64,000 nucleotides of DNA from Paludisphaera rhizosphaerae (GTDB taxonomy: Bacteria; Planctomycetota; Planctomycetia; Isosphaerales; Isosphaeraceae). The stretch is taken from NCBI RefSeq assembly GCF_011065895.1, contig NZ_JAALCR010000012.1, forward strand, positions 124,001-188,000. Reading direction: 5' to 3'. A program made the position numbers and the translations under genes. Below the pieces are notes generated by a model that worked only from the letters and a program-made list of their open reading frames with translations, was not told the origin of the DNA and searched no databases. Within the stretch, counting starts at the first letter, position 1, and each line of letters opens with the position of its first letter. Positions 16,215-56,285 of this stretch are shown here, one piece after another.

Positions 16215-17174
16215 TCAATACGCGTCGGCGCTGATGATCTCGCCGCCCTTGGTGCTGGCGAGGGCTCGCCAGATCGGCAGGCTGACGGTGTTCTTGAAGA
16301 ACCGCACCGAGCCGTCGCACATCGTGGCGTTCACACCGCCGGCGTGGAGGCTGCGAGCCGCAAGATAGAGCGGGCCGGCCGTGGCGTTGGCGCAGGGGGT
16401 CGGCTTGCCGGTGGTCACGGCGCAGGCGTTGACGGAGTACATCACGTCCTGGAGAGCCGAATTCGGCGCCAGCAGAGCGGTGAAGCCGGTCGAATCGGCC
16501 CACCAGGTCATGCCGCGCAACTCCGAGTTCTGCGGGACGATGATGATCTCCGAGTTCAACAGCGTGTTCGACGTGCCGTCAGTGACCGTGGCGATGGTGA
16601 CGGTCTGCCCCTTGTTCGGCGAGGCCTGATGGTTGGCGTTGCTGTAGGCGCGAATCCAGCCGTAGGGGGCGCCGTTGAAGACCGCGTCCTGAATGTTGTT
16701 CTGCTGGTCGAGGTCGGTCGATCCGAAATTGGCCACGTAATTGTGAGCCGAGATCTTGCCGGTGTTGGCCGCTCCCAGGGCGCTGCTGATCGGCCGCTGC
16801 TGAAGACCGTTGCTCGGGCAGAGGAAGGCGTTGATGAAGCTGGACGTGACCGTCGTGTTCGTCGGGTCGACGTATCGGGGAGAGTTGAAGTTGTACGAAT
16901 TCGAGAGTGCGACCTGCTCCATAAACGGCAAGATGAACGCCTGCCAGGTCCCGTTGCAGCAGTCGGAGGTCCCCGTCGGGAACGAGCCGGTCGTGCCGAC
17001 GTAGTTGTGGACGGAAAGACCGATCTGCTTCAGGTTGTTGGTGCACTGGATTCGCCGAGCGGCCTCGCGAGCGGCCTGAACGGCGGGCAACAGTAGCGCG
17101 ATCAAGACGGCGATGATCGCGATGACGACGAGCAGCTCAATCAGCGTGAACGCACTCTGTTTGCGTGATCTCAT
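16215..17174 (-). CDS. DUF1559 pseudopilin-like protein
   Basis: 319 residues from the ATG at 17174, with GGAG 8 bases upstream. The leader [15 protein letters not shown] has alanine, not glycine, before the Phe at the usual cleavage point. The body keeps [25 protein letters not shown], the region [20 protein letters not shown] and the end [10 protein letters not shown]. It follows a small lipoprotein gene by 35 bases, so the two are probably co-transcribed, as with three other DUF1559-lipoprotein pairs in this window. Role at the envelope unknown. Confidence 0.92.
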
Positions 17175-17209
17175 GGAGAGGCTCCGATAGTGAGAATAGA
17201 AGGCGACCA

Positions 17210-17680
17210 TCACTTGGAGGTGACGGCAAAGGTGAAATCATTGGGGCCGGCGGCGGTGACTTCCGTCGTCAGCTCGGTCTGGGCGTTGAACCGGGCGGGG
17301 ATCGTCTCCTGAGTGACCGCCGCGTCGGCGGGCGGATCGACGAGCTCGCCGGTGACGTTGTCGATCTGTTTCTTCTTCGCACCCGACTTGGCCGCGACCT
17401 CACGCTTCGCGGAGACGGAAACGCGGTACTTGCCTGGAACCAGTCCATCGGCCGCCGAGATCGAGAACGACCCGGCCGAGACCGTCGCCGCGGCCGAGGT
17501 CACCTCGCCGCTGCCCGCCATCGGCTGGAACGAAATCGTCGCCGAATCCAACGGCTGGCCGTCGAGCGTCACCTTGCCCGAGACCGCCTGACGCGGCAGC
17601 CCGTCGCCCCCGCTGCAGCCGAAGGTCGCCGCAATCGCGACGACGAAAGCAAGACGTGATCCTAATTTGATGAAAACCAT
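17210..17680 (-). CDS. Lipoprotein with carboxypeptidase-regulatory-like fold
   Basis: 156 residues from the ATG at 17680 with AGGA 8 bases upstream. The N terminus has a hydrophobic stretch and lipobox-like ATFGC (Cys22), followed by [21 protein letters not shown], the usual opening of planctomycete lipoproteins with a small beta-sandwich domain. Later features are [15 protein letters not shown] and the C-terminal [14 protein letters not shown]. It lies just upstream of the DUF1559 gene on the same strand. Comparison with the interrupted gene at 21430 shows the same architecture. Function unknown; probably an envelope-attached accessory to the DUF1559 protein. Confidence 0.8.
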
Positions 17681-17901
17681 CGATCGCGTTCCTATATTTG
17701 GCGACCCGAGGATCGTCTTCCTGTTCGGTAGTGGGGCCGCCACGTATTCGTCCGTGGCAGCCAAGAATGCGCAGACGCCACCAGCTCCCTACACGCAGCC
17801 GGTGTCCCGTCGGCGCAAGGCTGAACGCGCTTCGATCAATCGAGTGATCAACGCGCAGCGGTTTCGACGTATGTGGTTTGTGAAGATTTTACGATGACTA
17901 A

Positions 17902-20283: not shown

Positions 20284-20313
20284 TTCCGCTCTTGCCCGAG
20301 TTTCCGGAATCCG

Positions 20314-20343
20314 TTGACGCCCTGGATTAACGCAAGTTATATT
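20314..20343 (+). promoter_or_regulatory. Sigma-70-like promoter candidate for the DUF1559-lipoprotein-sulfatase run
   Basis: TTGACG (20314-20319) and TATATT (20338-20343) are separated by 18 bases, close to consensus and in a locally AT-richer stretch just after the GNAT stop. The DUF1559 start is 125 bases downstream, leaving a leader of about 115 bases. Matching is by eye. Confidence 0.5.
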
Positions 20344-20467
20344 TTCGGCACCTCTCAGCAACAATCAGAGAACAAGTCTTAGAAGAATCGATCGGACGGG
20401 CGGTCGCCGTCGACTCGCCTTCAACTCCTCCCGATCCCACAGCCTTCACCAGGCCTGGAGCTTTCGT

Positions 20468-21406
20468 ATGCGCGCCTCACGGGGACCTATCCGCGCTGCG
20501 TTCACCTTGATCGAGTTGCTCGTCGTCATCGCGATCATCGCCGTCTTGATCGCGCTGCTGCTGCCGGCCGTTCAGGCGGCGCGCGAAGCTGCGCGTCGGG
20601 CCCAGTGCATCAACAACCTGAAGCAACTCGGGCTGGCGCTGCACAACTACTTGTCAGTCAACGACCGCTTCCCCATGGGGTCGGCGGGTCGGCTGCCTAC
20701 CACCGGAGCCTATCCAACGCCCCAGAACTGGCGTGTTCCCGTGCTGGTGGGGACGATGCCGTACATCGAGCAAGGGGCGGCCTACAACGCCTACAACAAT
20801 CAGGTCCGGTTCAACCTCACGGCCAACGACACGAGCCGGCTGACGGTGATCTCCACGTACCAGTGCCCCTCGGACACGGTCCAGGGTTTCTGGCCGGCCG
20901 GAAGCGCGATGCAGGACTACAAGGGGAACTACGGCAATAACTGGGGTCAAAACACGTTCTTCGACCAGGGGATGAAGTCCCCCTTCTGGTTGAACTACGG
21001 GGCCACGATCGCTGAGATCGTCGACGGCACGAGCAACACACTGGCCATGATGGAGCTGGTTCAACCGCCGTCTCCCAGCGGCGCGACGGTGCCCGATCGC
21101 CGAGGCCGGATCTGGAACGACGACGCCGGCTGCTATCAGGTTTCGACTCTGCTGGCCCCCAACTCCACCGCGCCCGACATCGGCCAGTGCATGACCGCCC
21201 TGAACGCCCCCTGCAACTACATCGGCAATGCCGAACCGCTTCCGCTTCAATACTCGCTGGCCTCGCGGAGTCGACATTCGGGAGGCGTGAACGTGCTGAT
21301 GTGCGACGGTTCCTCGCGGTTCGCCAAGAACTCGATCAGCCTGCCCACATGGCGAGCGCTCAGCAGCCAGGCCGGCGGCGAGGTCATCAGCGCCGACTCG
21401 TACTGA
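20468..21406 (+). CDS. DUF1559 pseudopilin-like protein
   Basis: 312 residues, ATG at 20468 with GGAG 8 bases upstream. The leader [18 protein letters not shown] has Ala before the Phe. Body motifs: NNLKQLGLALHNYL, VDGTSNTLAMMELV, SRHSGGVNVLMCDGSSRFAKN and end GGEVISADSY. It is followed after 23 bases by an interrupted lipoprotein gene and then a sulfatase, all on the plus strand, suggesting one transcript. A promoter candidate lies at 20314-20343. Confidence 0.93.
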   Translation: MRASRGPIRAAFTLIELLVVIAIIAVLIALLLPAVQAAREAARRAQCINNLKQLGLALHNYLSVNDRFPMGSAGRLPTTGAYPTPQNWRVPVLVGTMPYIEQGAAYNAYNNQVRFNLTANDTSRLTVISTYQCPSDTVQGFWPAGSAMQDYKGNYGNNWGQNTFFDQGMKSPFWLNYGATIAEIVDGTSNTLAMMELVQPPSPSGATVPDRRGRIWNDDAGCYQVSTLLAPNSTAPDIGQCMTALNAPCNYIGNAEPLPLQYSLASRSRHSGGVNVLMCDGSSRFAKNSISLPTWRALSSQAGGEVISADSY

Positions 21407-21429
21407 TTCAAACCACGGAGGGGGAAACC

Positions 21430-21879
21430 ATGTCGCGAGCAGGCGCATGGCGCGCGGCGATTCTGGTGCTGGCGTTCACGGGCTGCGGCGGAGACGAGGA
21501 ATTCGCACGCGAAGCCGTCGAAGGGACGATCTCCTTCGACGGCAAACCGATGGAAGGGGGCGTGGTCGCCTTCGTTCCGACCGAGGGCGCTGGCCCCGGC
21601 GCGGGGGGAGAGATCGAGGCGGGCCGGTTCTCCATTGCCGGCTCCGAAGGTCCCACTCCTGGGCCACACCTCGTGACCGTCACGTGAACCAAACCGACAG
21701 GAAAGAAGATCGTCGACCCTGACACACCTGATCGCCAGGTCGAGGCCATGGTCAACGTCGTCCCGGGTCGGTACAACGTGAAATCAGAGTTGAAGGCGGA
21801 CGTCAAGGCTGGCGGCCCCAACAGCTTCACGTTCGATCTGACCTCCCAGCCCGACCCGCCCGCGAAACGGACGCGCTGA
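21430..21879 (+). pseudogene. Small lipoprotein gene interrupted by an in-frame TGA
   Basis: ATG at 21430, well-placed GGAGGGGG upstream. It opens with a lipoprotein signal (VLAFTGCGG, Cys19) and AVEGTISFDGKPMEGGVVAF, the same architecture as the intact gene at 17210. Codon 86 is TGA (21685-21687). The same frame then continues without a stop to 21879 and keeps homologous features: PGRYNVKSELKADVKAGGPN and FTFDLTS, parallel to the C terminus of the 17210 protein. A single base change (for example TGG to TGA) explains it. As read, a truncated 85-residue lipoprotein is made. Readthrough or a sequencing error are alternatives. No selenocysteine machinery is in this window. Confidence 0.8.
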
Positions 21880-21917
21880 GGATCGTCCCTCTCCTCGTCA
21901 GACTTCGAGATTCCGCC

Positions 21918-23366
21918 ATGAACGACCATCGCCCGATCGCCAGCCGCGTCCGTCTGGCCCTTCGCCTGCTGACGACCGCAACTGCGCTGGCCGTCGCCGC
22001 GGGGGCTCCTCCCGCCGGCCTTGCTCGCGACGGCAAACCGAACGTCGTGTTCATCCTGGCCGACGACCTGGGACGCGGCGACCTGGGCTGCTACGGCCAG
22101 CAGAAGATCCGCACCCCGAACGTCGACCGCATGGCCGCCGAGGGGATGCGGTTCACGCGGTTCTACGCCGGCTCGCCGGTCTGCGCCCCCGCTCGGTGCA
22201 CGCTCTTGACCGGCAAGCACACCGGCCACGCCTTTGTCCGCGACAACTCTGAAGTCCAGCCCGAAGGGCAGGGGCCGATCCCCGATTCCGAGGTCACGCT
22301 GGCCGAGATGTTCAAGGCCCAGGGCTACACCACCGCCGCGATCGGCAAGTGGGGTCTGGGCTTCCCCGGCTCCGAGGGAGACCCGCTCCGGCAGGGGTTC
22401 GACCACTTCTACGGATACAACTGCCAGCGACACGCCCACTTCCACTACCCGTCCTATCTCTGGAAGGACGGCCAGAAGATCACGATCCCCGGCAACCGCG
22501 ACGACGGCACCGGCGAGGTCCACTCCAACGACCTCTTCGAAGCCGAGGCGCTACGGTTCATCGAGGCCGAGAAGGGTCGCCCCTTCTTCCTCTTCCTGCC
22601 GCTGACCTTGATCCACGCCTCGCTCCAGGTCCCGGCCGACTCGCTGGCCGAGTACGCCGGCGCGTTCCCCGAAACCCCGTACCAGGGGACGCACTACAAG
22701 TCTCACCCAACCCCTCGCGCGGCGCAGGCGGCGATGGTCACACGCCTGGACCGCACGGTGGGCCGGGTTCTCGAAAAGCTCCGCCAGTGCGGTCTGGACG
22801 ACGACACGCTGGTGATCTTCAGTTCCGACAACGGCCCGACCCGGAACGAAGGCGGCGGCGACAGCCCCTTCTTCAACTCGGCCGGCGGGCTGAAGGGCTT
22901 CAAGGGCTCGGTGTACGAGGGCGGCATCGCCGTCCCGCTCCTCGTCCGCTGGCCGGGGCGGGTCAAGCCTGGGTCGACCTGCGACTTCATTGGCTACTTC
23001 CCAGACGTGCCGTCGACCTTGATGGAGATCATCGGAGCGCCGGCGCCGGTGGGGACCGACGGGTTCAGCTTCGCCCCCAGCCTCCTCGGCTCGTCCTCAC
23101 CCCAGCCGGTGCACGACCTGCTTTACTGGGAGTTCGCCTCATACGGCGGTCAGCAGGCGGTCCGGATGGGTCCCTGGAAGGCCGTGCGTCAGAACCTCTC
23201 CAAGGGTCCGGCCAAGACCGAGTTGTACAACCTCGACGACGACCCGACCGAATCCCACGACCTGGCCGCCGGCCGTCCCGATGCCACGGCTTACTTCGAG
23301 GCCGTGATGAAGAGAGAGCACGTTCCTTCGCCGCAGTTTCCGCTCCCCTCCGTCGACCCGCGATAG
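21918..23366 (+). CDS. Exported arylsulfatase
   Basis: 482 residues. A signal peptide ends near AAGAPPAGLARD. Sulfatase motifs: VVFILADDLGRGDLGCYG, the formylglycine site CAPAR (Cys89) followed by CTLLTGKHTGH, AIGKWGLGFPGSEGDP, FSSDNGPTRNEGG and LYNLDDDPTESHDLAAG. It would hydrolyse sulfate esters after export and cysteine-to-formylglycine conversion. It is downstream of a DUF1559 gene and an interrupted lipoprotein gene on the same strand, which suggests a shared transcript. It ends 10 bases from the convergent ilvA gene. Substrate not predictable. Confidence 0.93.
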   Translation: MNDHRPIASRVRLALRLLTTATALAVAAGAPPAGLARDGKPNVVFILADDLGRGDLGCYGQQKIRTPNVDRMAAEGMRFTRFYAGSPVCAPARCTLLTGKHTGHAFVRDNSEVQPEGQGPIPDSEVTLAEMFKAQGYTTAAIGKWGLGFPGSEGDPLRQGFDHFYGYNCQRHAHFHYPSYLWKDGQKITIPGNRDDGTGEVHSNDLFEAEALRFIEAEKGRPFFLFLPLTLIHASLQVPADSLAEYAGAFPETPYQGTHYKSHPTPRAAQAAMVTRLDRTVGRVLEKLRQCGLDDDTLVIFSSDNGPTRNEGGGDSPFFNSAGGLKGFKGSVYEGGIAVPLLVRWPGRVKPGSTCDFIGYFPDVPSTLMEIIGAPAPVGTDGFSFAPSLLGSSSPQPVHDLLYWEFASYGGQQAVRMGPWKAVRQNLSKGPAKTELYNLDDDPTESHDLAAGRPDATAYFEAVMKREHVPSPQFPLPSVDPR

Positions 23367-23376
23367 CCGACGCGGT

Positions 23377-24903
<1,527 letters not shown>

Positions 24904-38701: not shown

Positions 38702-39118
38702 TCACTTCTTCGGCTCGGGAATGACGATCTCCTTCACATCACGAGGGTGCAGGACCCACGCCAGCAACCGGGTCTTCGCCTTGCCCGGGTTCCTCGACAC
38801 GCGATGCAGGCATCCGGCCGGCTCGTAAAACGTATCGCCCGCCTTGAGGATCCTGGTGGGCTGGTCGTCGATGCCCCACTCGTACTCGCCCTCCAGGATG
38901 TAGCCGAACCCCGGGCCGGGATGGCGGTGGGAGACGCCCGCCTTCCCGGGCTGGATCGTCACCTCCACCGCCGTTGCCGTCGTCTCCTTGCCGTCGACTT
39001 TCTCCACGATGTCCCGCACGGTCAAGGTTTTGACGGACTCGGCCTCGTCATCGTGCATCGCCGCGACCATCCCCACAGCCGTCAGGACGATTCCGACCGC
39101 CAGCGCAACTCGGGCCAT
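38702..39118 (-). CDS. Exported cupin-domain protein
   Basis: 138 residues from the ATG at 39118, GAGGAAG 6 bases upstream. The N terminus MARVALAVGIVLTAVGMVAA is a signal peptide or anchor. The cupin core has VEVTIQPGKAGVSHRHPGPG, GYILEGEYEWGID, and ILKAGDTFYEPAGCLHRVSRN. The HxH...E...H metal ligands are visible (SHRHPG, EGEYEW, CLHRVS). Cupins of this small size bind a metal ion and a small ligand or act as sensors. The ligand is unknown. It starts a two-gene minus-strand run with the NAD(P)-binding gene. Confidence 0.85.
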   Translation of the reverse strand: MARVALAVGIVLTAVGMVAAMHDDEAESVKTLTVRDIVEKVDGKETTATAVEVTIQPGKAGVSHRHPGPGFGYILEGEYEWGIDDQPTRILKAGDTFYEPAGCLHRVSRNPGKAKTRLLAWVLHPRDVKEIVIPEPKK

Positions 39119-39274
39119 GATGCTTCCTCGCTTTCCGTTGTCGTAATGACGTCGCCGTGCAGCTTCCCGGCTCTCGACACCAAGGACGTTCGGACCCGTC
39201 CGGTTTGTGACCGATGAACGATTTTTCGTCGACCGTCGCAATTGAAGTCGGCGGCGAGGAGACGACGAATGCCG

Positions 39275-53007: not shown

Positions 53008-54984
53008 ATGAACGAAATAGGATCGACATCCTCGGTCGAGAAGGCGTGCCGTCAGACCAACCCTGAGGGGGTCGAGCGGCGATCGGCGATCGGATCGGTC
53101 CTCTTGAGGATGATGTGGTTCGGCCTTGTCGCCGGCTGGCTCAACCTGGGGTTGGTGCTGGCCCAGGGCGCCCTCCGACCGCACGTCGCCACCGCGAGGG
53201 TGCGGACGAACCTCCATTTCTGGTGGATGATCCCCGCGTCCGACGCGCTGGTCTTCGGCGTCGTCGGGCTGGCGCTCGCGCTGGCGACTCGGCCGTGGCC
53301 GAGGCTGGCGCGGTGGACGGCCTGGCGGGCGCCGATCGCGATGCTCTTCCTGGCCTTGCTGCTGGAAGTGGAGGGGCTGTACCAGAGCGCGGCGCTCTTC
53401 CTGGCGTGCGGGCTGGCGTTGAGGATCGGGCCCCTGATCGACGGCCAAGCGGAGCGGTTCGGCCGGCTCATCCGGCTGAGCTTCCCGGCGCTGGCGCTGG
53501 GCACGGCGGCGTCCGCGTGGCTGATCCACGAGCGGGTCGAATCGGCCGAGGAACGAGCCCTCGCCGCCGCCGCCCCCGCGCGGCCGGGAGCGCCGAACGT
53601 GCTGCTGCTCGTGCTGGACACCGTCCGCGCCGAGTGCCTGAGCCTCCACGGGCACGACCGCACGACCACGCCGAACATCGACCGCCTGGCGAGCCGAGGC
53701 GTCCTCTTCACCCAGGCCCGCACTACGGCCCCGTGGACCGCCCCGGCGCACGCCAGCCTCATGACCGGCCGCTGGCCGCATGAGCTCTCGGTCGCTCCCG
53801 GCGAGCCGCTCGATGCGAGCTTCCCGACGCTGGCCGAGGTCCTGGGGCGCGAGGGATACGCCACGGCCGGGTTCATTGGCAACATCTACTGCTGCAACGG
53901 CCTCTATGGCATCGGTCGCGGGTTCGCCCGCTACGAGGACGCCTACGAGAATCAGGCCCCCTCGTTCCTGGAAACCCTCTACAGCTCCGGGCTGGGCCGG
54001 CGGGTCCTCCAGACGATGGGACATCCAATGGACCCCACCGACGAGGCCGCGCTGCCGCGCAAGACGGCCGAGATGCTCAATCGCGACATGCTCGGCTGGC
54101 TCGATCAGCGTCCCGCCGACCGGCCGTTCTTCGCCTTCATCAATTACTACGACGCCCACCGGCCGTACCGATTTTACACCCCTCCGGAGTCGCGCTTCGG
54201 CAAGGCGGCTCTGTCGCCCGCCGACCAGGAAGCGCTCGAACGGACTTGCTTTGAGGCGATCGCCGGCCGGCCCGGGGATTCCGGCCTCACGCCCGAGCAG
54301 GCCGGGCAGGAGCTCACGCAGTTCTATCACGACGCGTACGACACCTGCATCGCCTACATCGACCAGCAGCTCGGCCTCCTCTTCGACGAGATGGAGCGAA
54401 AGGGCCTGCTGGAGAACACGCTGATCGTCGTGACGTCCGACCACGGCGAGGAGATCGGCGAGCGCGGGCGGCTCGTCCACGGCGCGAGCGTCTACAGCAC
54501 GGAGGCCCACGTCCCCCTCGTGGTCGTCCCGCCGTCCCGTTGGTCAGGGCCGCAGGTCGTGGCCGAACCGGTGAGCCTCCGTGACGTCCCCGCGACGATC
54601 GCCCAGTGGACCGGCCTGGGCGCGAGCAGCCCGTTCCCGGGACATCCTCTCACCCAGCTTGCGGCGAACGACCAGGATCGACCGGCGACGAGGTCCCCCG
54701 TCCTCTGCGAGTTGGAGCACATCATCGCCTTCCCCCTGGACGAACCGGTCCCTCCCCCCTTCGGCCCGGCCCGCTCCCTCGTGGCGAGAGACCGGATCTA
54801 CATCCGCCGGCCGGAAGGGTCCGAGGAGCTATACGACCTCCGGTTCGACCCCATGGAGATCGTCGACCTGGCCAAGGACCCAGGCTCCGCCCCGACCATC
54901 GAGCAGTTCCGCCAGGAACTGGACCAGCTCCGCCGCGACGAGGCCGTCTTGCCCACGAGCCTGGAGGCCCTGCCCAAGCCCTGA
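53008..54984 (+). CDS. Membrane-anchored sulfatase-fold protein lacking the formylglycine cysteine
   Basis: 658 residues from the ATG at 53008. In-frame sequence back to 52813 contains no better start. Residues 30-175 contain about five hydrophobic helices. The hydrolase domain begins near 195 with VLLLVLDTVRAECLSLHGH and has TPNIDRLASRG and IVVTSDHGEEIGE. At the catalytic position there is WTAPAHASLMTG: Thr244 takes the place of the Cys/Ser that becomes formylglycine, and CxPxR is absent. This pattern fits sulfatase-like enzymes using Thr or Ser directly, such as phosphoethanolamine or phosphoglycerol transferases. It may modify a lipid or envelope glycan. AT-rich TTTTTAATAATA near 52730 may mark its promoter. 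Confidence 0.88.
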   Translation: MNEIGSTSSVEKACRQTNPEGVERRSAIGSVLLRMMWFGLVAGWLNLGLVLAQGALRPHVATARVRTNLHFWWMIPASDALVFGVVGLALALATRPWPRLARWTAWRAPIAMLFLALLLEVEGLYQSAALFLACGLALRIGPLIDGQAERFGRLIRLSFPALALGTAASAWLIHERVESAEERALAAAAPARPGAPNVLLLVLDTVRAECLSLHGHDRTTTPNIDRLASRGVLFTQARTTAPWTAPAHASLMTGRWPHELSVAPGEPLDASFPTLAEVLGREGYATAGFIGNIYCCNGLYGIGRGFARYEDAYENQAPSFLETLYSSGLGRRVLQTMGHPMDPTDEAALPRKTAEMLNRDMLGWLDQRPADRPFFAFINYYDAHRPYRFYTPPESRFGKAALSPADQEALERTCFEAIAGRPGDSGLTPEQAGQELTQFYHDAYDTCIAYIDQQLGLLFDEMERKGLLENTLIVVTSDHGEEIGERGRLVHGASVYSTEAHVPLVVVPPSRWSGPQVVAEPVSLRDVPATIAQWTGLGASSPFPGHPLTQLAANDQDRPATRSPVLCELEHIIAFPLDEPVPPPFGPARSLVARDRIYIRRPEGSEELYDLRFDPMEIVDLAKDPGSAPTIEQFRQELDQLRRDEAVLPTSLEALPKP

Positions 54985-55000
54985 GCCGAGTCCACCATGG

Positions 55001-55060
55001 CCTTCCCCCCTCGCGAGGAAAGGTGGCCGCGAAACGGCCGGATGAGGAGGGATCGGCGTC
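55001..55060. repeat. Repeat family C, degenerate copy
   Basis: CCTTCCCCCCTCGCGAGGAA, AGGTGGCCGCGAAACGGCCG, GATGAGGAGGGATCGGCGTC. It lies 16 bases after the stop of the sulfatase-fold gene. Confidence 0.6.
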
Positions 55061-55183
55061 GCCCCGGGAGCCGATCGCCGAATGCGCAACCGACGCCGAG
55101 CTTTCCGCTCATCGAATCGCGAAGCGGCCGGTGGGGCACCGTGACCAATTGCCGAGGGATAGGGATAATGCTGGAGCGCGGAG

Positions 55184-55549
55184 TTAGGCGTCCACTTCGG
55201 TTGCCAGCATCCAACCGATGAGTCGATCGATCATCTCGAAGTCGAAATCATCTCCTCGGCGGCGGTGTTGCTCTGGATCGTCGTTGACGATGAGCGGACC
55301 AACATCGAGGCCGCCATCATGCTCGCGAATCGGTAGTCGATAAACATGGTAGCCAGTCCAACTCCGATAGAAGTCGAGCGAATGAGAACGGAGTATGCCG
55401 ACCCACTTATCCTCCATCCGTTGAGGGATGAGGCCGCGCCTGAGCAGTTGCACCTCAGCTTCCGTGAAAGAGCGACTGAAAGGGAGTTCTACTCGAGGCA
55501 GGGGCATCGGCTTGCTGCGACGATCCCAGGGCTCCATTTTGAGACTCAT
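55184..55549 (-). CDS. Uncharacterised small cytoplasmic protein
   Basis: 121 residues, ATG at 55549. No signal peptide or membrane helix. LPFSRSFTEAEVQLLRRGLI, PQRMEDKWVGILRSHSLDFY, RSWTGYHVYRL: the MEDKW...YRSWTG pattern recurs in small orphan proteins scattered through bacteria, to my knowledge without assigned function. The gene lies in a region of lower GC with two other small orphan genes, each separated by paired palindromic repeats. Confidence 0.65.
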   Translation of the reverse strand: MSLKMEPWDRRSKPMPLPRVELPFSRSFTEAEVQLLRRGLIPQRMEDKWVGILRSHSLDFYRSWTGYHVYRLPIREHDGGLDVGPLIVNDDPEQHRRRGDDFDFEMIDRLIGWMLATEVDA

Positions 55550-55664
55550 CGGGAAACGCCTAGCAAGTGATTATGCCAACGAGCGTGCTTACGCCCTCGA
55601 ACGCTTGCGTCAAGGCATTATATCTTAAGGCGTCCTCGCCACATGGAACAGACCAAAGTCGAAT

Positions 55665-55735
55665 AGGGTGGGCATCGCCCACCGACCGATCTCTTGGCCT
55701 GGCAAAAAGATAAGCCGGCGGGCGATGCCCACCCT
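55665..55735. repeat. Palindromic repeat family D, inverted pair
   Basis: AGGGTGGGCATCGCCC (55665-55680) and its exact inverse GGGCGATGCCCACCCT (55720-55735), 39 bases apart. Each arm is also internally palindromic (GGGTGGGCATCGCCCACC type). It lies between two small orphan genes. Confidence 0.8.
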
Positions 55736-55772
55736 GCCAGGCTTCGATCCATCTCGAACCGACGACTGAAGA

Positions 55773-56285
55773 CTACATATAATCATAGTAGTCTGCGATA
55801 TCGGGCTCCTTGGAATCGTCGAAGCCGGCCTCGCGCAATTCCTCGGACGTGACGATCCGATCGCATTCACCGAACATCGCCCGGAACAGCGCATAAAGGA
55901 TCTCGCGATGCGCTGCCTCGCTTGCCTGGTTTGCCTCGACGATCATCCGACTGGCCTCGTACACGATTGGGCCAACCTCGCCGCTTTCGTCCAGCTTCTT
56001 GTGGAGCAGGCCCGCCTCGAGGTACCCGGCCCAAGGATTGGTGACCTGCAGCAGGGAACCGATGGTGTTTTGGAAGAGGCCCCACAGAACTCTTTGTCTT
56101 TGATTGAAGGAAAGCCCTTCGCTCGACAGACGAATCCCGAAGTGCCGCTGGACAGCTTCAAGGAGGGAGGTGTAGTAGTTCGTGAAGTCGGAGTGAACGA
56201 AGTCCTTCCGCTGAGAATAGAGGCATGCCTCAATCAGCACGCGATAATCGTAGGGGCGATCCAGGCGAGCGACGTGATAGCCCAT
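55773..56285 (-). CDS. Uncharacterised protein
   Basis: 170 residues from the ATG at 56285, which has GGAGG 6 bases upstream; an in-frame extension to 56396 runs through a family E repeat, so it is not used. MGYHVARLDRPYDYRVLIEA, CLYSQRKDFVHSDFTNYYTS, then helical segments (GEVGPIVYEASRMIVEANQA) and an acidic end DIADYYDYM. No signal peptide, no domain I can name. Codon use is less GC-biased than in neighbours. Function unknown. Confidence 0.6.
   Translation of the reverse strand: MGYHVARLDRPYDYRVLIEACLYSQRKDFVHSDFTNYYTSLLEAVQRHFGIRLSSEGLSFNQRQRVLWGLFQNTIGSLLQVTNPWAGYLEAGLLHKKLDESGEVGPIVYEASRMIVEANQASEAAHREILYALFRAMFGECDRIVTSEELREAGFDDSKEPDIADYYDYM

Follow-up and report, generated by a model that had tools for sequence, protein, structure and literature searches.

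Does the TGA codon that interrupts a lipoprotein reading frame at 21430-21879 (+) of the window, the whole 64,000-nucleotide stretch of Paludisphaera rhizosphaerae DNA analysed here, reflect the loss of a gene, a mistake in the draft sequence or a stop that the cell reads through? Translation of the frame gave 85 residues, a TGA at codon 86 (21685-21687), 63 further sense codons and a terminal TGA at 21877-21879, which agrees with the preliminary description of an in-frame TGA in a frame otherwise open to 21879. The TGA at 21685-21687 (+), seen both in the translation and in an alignment column of 62 relatives, is the sole internal stop. Up to and including this stop (21430-21687, +), the gene specifies 85 aa with a signal peptide and a near-invariant Gly-Cys pair at residues 18-19, and a direct reading of the letters finds a ribosome-binding-site-like GGAGGGGG at 21417-21424 (+), ahead of the ATG at 21430. 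The rest of the frame (21688-21879, +; 63 codons and the terminal TGA) is well conserved and holds predicted strands at residues 87-95, 103-109, 121-125 and 132-137. A DNA palindrome, TCACGTGA, overlaps the premature stop; short palindromes are common and we take no inference from this one.

The preliminary description left the choice between a pseudogene, a sequencing error and readthrough. The first two fit all of the data; readthrough fares poorly, with no decoding apparatus apparent and the stop unique to this copy. The most likely answer is thus that the gene was lately inactivated by mutation or that the sequence is in error, not that the cell has a new mode of gene reading. Nonsense alleles and base-call errors are both common in draft genomes. 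The broken gene is in itself of little import, and its use is to indicate that one copy of a family dozens strong may be lost.

The stop codon in the context of the lipoprotein family

For the family search only, the TGA was read as Trp in the query. A protein search of the own genome returned 30 matches at E 0.001, the gene itself included, and the family profile found at least 46 matches there, a count that takes in the gene and some partial matches (150 of 173 candidates scored). The broken gene matched this profile, which includes its own sequence, at E 8.9e-45. Matches were present in all six genus genomes and, at E 1e-20, in 22 of 45 family-level genomes with the own genome counted. No close orthologue emerged from the genus, family and order searches, which gave 45-46% identity at best (the order-level search covered the same 45 genomes as the family-level search): the closest relative, L029, is 45% identical, the best value among high-scoring matches, and one lower-scoring match reaches 46%. 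A search of genome contigs gave two loci at 31-33% identity.

We aligned 62 relatives from 21 family-level genomes, 19 of them from the own genome; L071, which has a short flank, was left out of the alignment and of the stop-codon and invariance counts, and L054 and L055 stayed unaligned. The homology claimed earlier on both sides of the stop holds, since L029 is identical at 28 of 65 positions before it and at 28 of 53 after it. Likewise, the proposed likeness to the lipoprotein at 17210 is real: the intact gene at 17210-17764 (-) (locus L017), which adjoins a DUF1559 gene at 16215-17213 (-), is a paralogue with 38% identity over residues 9-144.

Gly18 and Cys19 are present in the broken gene and near-invariant across the 63 sequences, a pattern in keeping with the predicted lipoprotein signal, and G32, G65 and G74 are invariant in the family alignment. 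We found no Pfam or NCBIfam model that covers the family. In Pfam, CarboxypepD_reg (PF13620) matched 15 of 63 members weakly, at E 0.1 or better, NCBIfam gave single weak matches only, and a literature search returned nothing on the family. The broken gene resembles the other members of this planctomycete DUF1559-linked family in its domain-wide similarity, Gly-Cys signal peptide, G32/G65/G74, beta domain and same-strand DUF1559 neighbour. It differs in lacking a full-length frame, whereas the 62 other aligned members continue through the stop column.

In that column the relatives carry Ser (34), Ala (18), Val (3), Glu (3), Pro (2), Lys (1) and Leu (1), and none has a stop, Trp or Cys. The lesion is thus missing from all 62 relatives, as would be expected of a recent pseudogene. 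Because none of the 62 ends at this column, the extension beyond codon 86 appears to be real and the stop to be the anomaly, with the proviso that none of them is a close orthologue (best 45%). The preliminary description had also looked to relatives for the codon that TGA replaced, with TGG as its example. Their alignment gave a Ser- and Ala-rich column without Trp, from which the codon that preceded TGA is not inferable.

An internal stop common to the family was considered and rejected: the flagged entries with loci (44 relatives and the best 30 own-genome copies) proved to be terminal stops, bar that of the broken gene. Among the best 30 of the 46 own-genome matches, two of which are partial over the domain (L178 and L180), only the broken gene is interrupted within the match, and the remaining stops lie no more than two residues from the match end.

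A short lipoprotein selected as such, with the 85-residue product as its functional form, would agree with the signal peptide and predicted lipid attachment site that precede the stop. Three observations tell against it, namely that no relative among the 62 ends there, that the stop separates two neighbouring predicted strands, and that the sequence after the stop ranks 2nd and that before it 52nd of 63 by profile score, the opposite of long selection on the head alone. We consider such a product improbable.

Age of the stop and what it removes

In a leave-one-out profile comparison, residues 87-139, after the stop, scored 84.3 bits, second of 63, and residues 20-85, before it, scored 73.5 bits, 52nd of 63; both ranks are somewhat inflated by the choice of relatives for their similarity to the protein of the broken gene. 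Third-position GC content (GC3) was 0.794 after the stop and 0.765 before it, against a mean of 0.86 in the relatives, and the two halves of the gene have the 10th and 11th lowest values of 63. Neither profile score nor GC3, set against the 62 relatives, gave any sign of decay in the tail. Since the tail is so well conserved, the stop would be either a base-call error or of very recent origin. When 5% of the tail was randomly substituted in a simulation, the median profile score fell from 84.3 to 71.0 bits, a drop that limits the age of the stop only loosely. Because GC3 is below the mean of the relatives in both halves, a weak gene-wide relaxation is indistinguishable from the gene's own GC3 style.

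An AlphaFold2 model built from the 63-row alignment, with Trp at residue 86, had nine strands, a mean pLDDT of 89.9 and a pTM of 0.76. Here the stop falls between adjacent predicted strands at residues 78-85 and 87-95, so that the last four of the nine strands are lost; the earlier suggestion that a truncated product would lack half its fold agrees with this model. To judge from the model, the stub would keep its predicted lipid anchor and would hardly fold. Foldseek found no match to the model in the PDB at E 0.001 or better, the weak matches being varied and mostly beta-rich with a lipoxygenase first, and among PDB sequences a profile search returned a single match, at E 0.15, which looks like chance.

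We think it probable that a very recent nonsense mutation has truncated one of many lipoprotein paralogues. The mutation would have struck a single gene of an extensive family encoding small lipoproteins, the intact members of which combine a Gly-Cys lipoprotein signal peptide with a predicted nine-strand beta domain and mostly adjoin a DUF1559 gene. Translation would end after residue 85 and leave a lipidated stub with five of the nine strands, which would presumably misfold and then be degraded, and other copies in the genome would cover the loss if the paralogues are redundant. We infer both the presence of the stop in the cell and a loss of function. The points counted for a recent mutation are the single stop, its absence from all 62 relatives, the conserved tail and the four of nine strands beyond the stop. 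A new stop would not account for the low rank of the head within the family (52nd of 63 by profile score), which counts against a recent mutation. As in recent single-lesion nonsense pseudogenes of bacteria, one disabling stop lies in an otherwise conserved frame and intact paralogues remain; here, in contrast to those, the stop is known from one assembly alone.

A base-call error would give the identical picture, the best relative being only 45% identical. In that case the cell would carry an intact gene, and a single base would be wrong in the draft, an 8.05-Mb genome in 110 contigs, and a tail without decay is what one would then see. Passages of Cooley and Wright 2024 (PMC11017572) attribute many internal-stop pseudogenes in bacterial assemblies to assembly errors and describe error-made internal stops as common in some assemblies. 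Against such an error, 29 of the best 30 lipoprotein matches have no stop inside, nor does any of the 150 DUF1559 matches listed for the own genome (150 of 173 candidates scored). The assembly is therefore not grossly error-rich, and these counts bound its error rate only loosely. Two flagged sulfatase matches are not broken inside either: one (C32:37343) has three TGA codons within its first eight residues and the other (L079) has its stop at residue 455 of 461. In most finished drafts, real recent nonsense alleles should outnumber single-base substitution errors. Because of this judgement, which is one of general knowledge, we favour a nonsense allele and regard an assembly error as a serious but distinctly less likely explanation.

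Decoding of UGA

If UGA were partly decoded, with a near-cognate tRNA inserting Trp or with selenocysteine inserted instead, two forms of the protein would be made. The conserved tail would suit such readthrough, and passages of one study (PMC11126739) describe UGA as leakier than the other stop codons in E. coli reporters, with values of up to 14% in earlier work and up to 80% for some reporters under stress. By analogy, UGA misreading could yield some full-length product here, which would not be a special mechanism. Several results point the other way. The stop is unique among the copies examined and its column is never Trp or Cys. We also found no stop-reading tRNA, tRNA-Sec, SelB over the cut-off, Rfam match near the stop or RNA fold above shuffled sequences, and we consider readthrough very unlikely.

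A genetic code with TGA as Trp was rejected: since TGA is the terminal stop in 52 of 62 relatives, it appears to be the usual stop codon here. Of the 69 Rfam tRNA matches, 66 are accounted for by the 73 distinct tRNA genes that ARAGORN called at the loci examined; the other three, at C4:35201, C1:377286 and C15:63413, had no ARAGORN call. None of the 73 genes has a stop-reading anticodon and likewise none has UCA, and a suppressor tRNA was rejected on this basis, the three uncalled Rfam matches aside. The genome has two tRNA-Trp(CCA) genes, both with at least five anticodon-stem pairs, unlike the UGA-reading tRNA-Trp with a 4-bp anticodon stem described in passages of PMC13092985. Neither feature expected of UGA-to-Trp recoding, a tRNA-Trp with a UCA anticodon or one with a 4-bp anticodon stem, was found among the genes called.

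Selenocysteine insertion was rejected in the same way, for want of a tRNA-Sec, a SelB over the cut-off and a SECIS-like fold. The sole RF01852 match over the cut-off was a tRNA-Ser(tga), and a match below it, at C1:59574, was a tRNA-Ser(gct). The SelB model gave eight matches in the genome, none over the cut-off. RNA around the TGA folded no more stably than shuffled sequences (z -0.54 and 0.94), and Rfam had no match at E 0.5 within 20300-23500. The locus resembles selenoprotein and programmed UGA readthrough genes in having an in-frame UGA with conserved sequence beyond it; it differs in that no tRNA-Sec, over-cut-off SelB or hairpin was seen, the stop is unshared and the column of the relatives lacks Cys and Trp.

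As a separate observation, two dense clusters on the 56-kb contig C33, at about 38800-39230 and 53480-55840 (L102, L104, L138, L150), together comprise 26 tRNA genes and stand beside a dispersed tRNA set elsewhere in the genome. The clusters look like the tRNA array of a mobile element, and none of these 26 genes has a stop-reading anticodon.

Flanking genes and the pairing with DUF1559

The preliminary description placed the gene between a DUF1559 gene and a sulfatase gene on the plus strand, and both flanks are open frames with PF07596 and PF00884 matches, respectively. Upstream on the same strand, across a gap of 23 bp, lies an intact DUF1559 gene (20468-21406, +; 312 aa) with a prepilin-type start (PF07596 E 2.4e-48; N_methyl E 3.5e-5; H-X9-DG-CTERM E 6.7e-10). 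A promoter-like site at 20314-20343, which is a consensus match only, precedes it. Downstream on the same strand is an intact sulfatase gene (21918-23366, +; 482 aa; PF00884 E 4.6e-56). The same order and strand of DUF1559, lipoprotein and sulfatase genes occur in three other genus genomes, G002, G003 and G005 (L033/L078, L044/L079 and L039/L082), where the sulfatases are 47-50% identical to that of the window and the lipoprotein copies are full length. Partial UGA readthrough within this cluster would give a lipid-anchored stub together with a full-length form, in a ratio set by conditions that weaken termination, an arrangement we regard as very improbable.

Beyond this locus, 39 of the 46 own-genome lipoprotein matches listed lie within 1.5 kb of a DUF1559 match on the same strand (DUF1559 upstream in 23, downstream in 16), as counted with 150 of the 152 DUF1559 matches. 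Positions shifted by 5-20 kb gave a mean of 2.0 and a maximum of 6 in 500 trials, a control that is a little low because shifted places falling off a contig were not replaced. Among 63 relatives, a same-strand DUF1559 neighbour was present for 59 (upstream 32, downstream 27); one had a neighbour on the other strand only and three had none. The pairing of DUF1559 and Gly-Cys lipoprotein genes was noted at 20468-21879 and 16215-17764 of the window and across the set of loci L010-L053 and L056-L074. Distances among the lipoproteins correlated with those among their DUF1559 neighbours (Mantel r 0.68 across 58 pairs and likewise 0.68 across the 18 pairs of the own genome), with none of 2000 permutations as high in either case; only pairs with a DUF1559 stretch of about 200 residues entered this comparison.

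The passages of DUF1559 literature examined mention no lipoprotein partner. Two of the papers call DUF1559 proteins solute-binding and not pseudopilins. The domain is described as one that seems to be confined to Planctomycetes (PMC10632474) or to the PVC superphylum (PMC4807772), and the many DUF1559 genes of the own genome accordingly mark it as that of a planctomycete. For the DUF1559 protein of the window we lean to a pseudopilin-like nature, on account of its prepilin-type start and its C-terminal H-X9-DG motif. A partnership of DUF1559 proteins and lipoproteins in the envelope is a reasonable guess, and their pairing offers a testable connection between two protein families that are both poorly understood. 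The DUF1559 domain (PF07596) had no match in 14 control genomes and at least 152 in the own genome.
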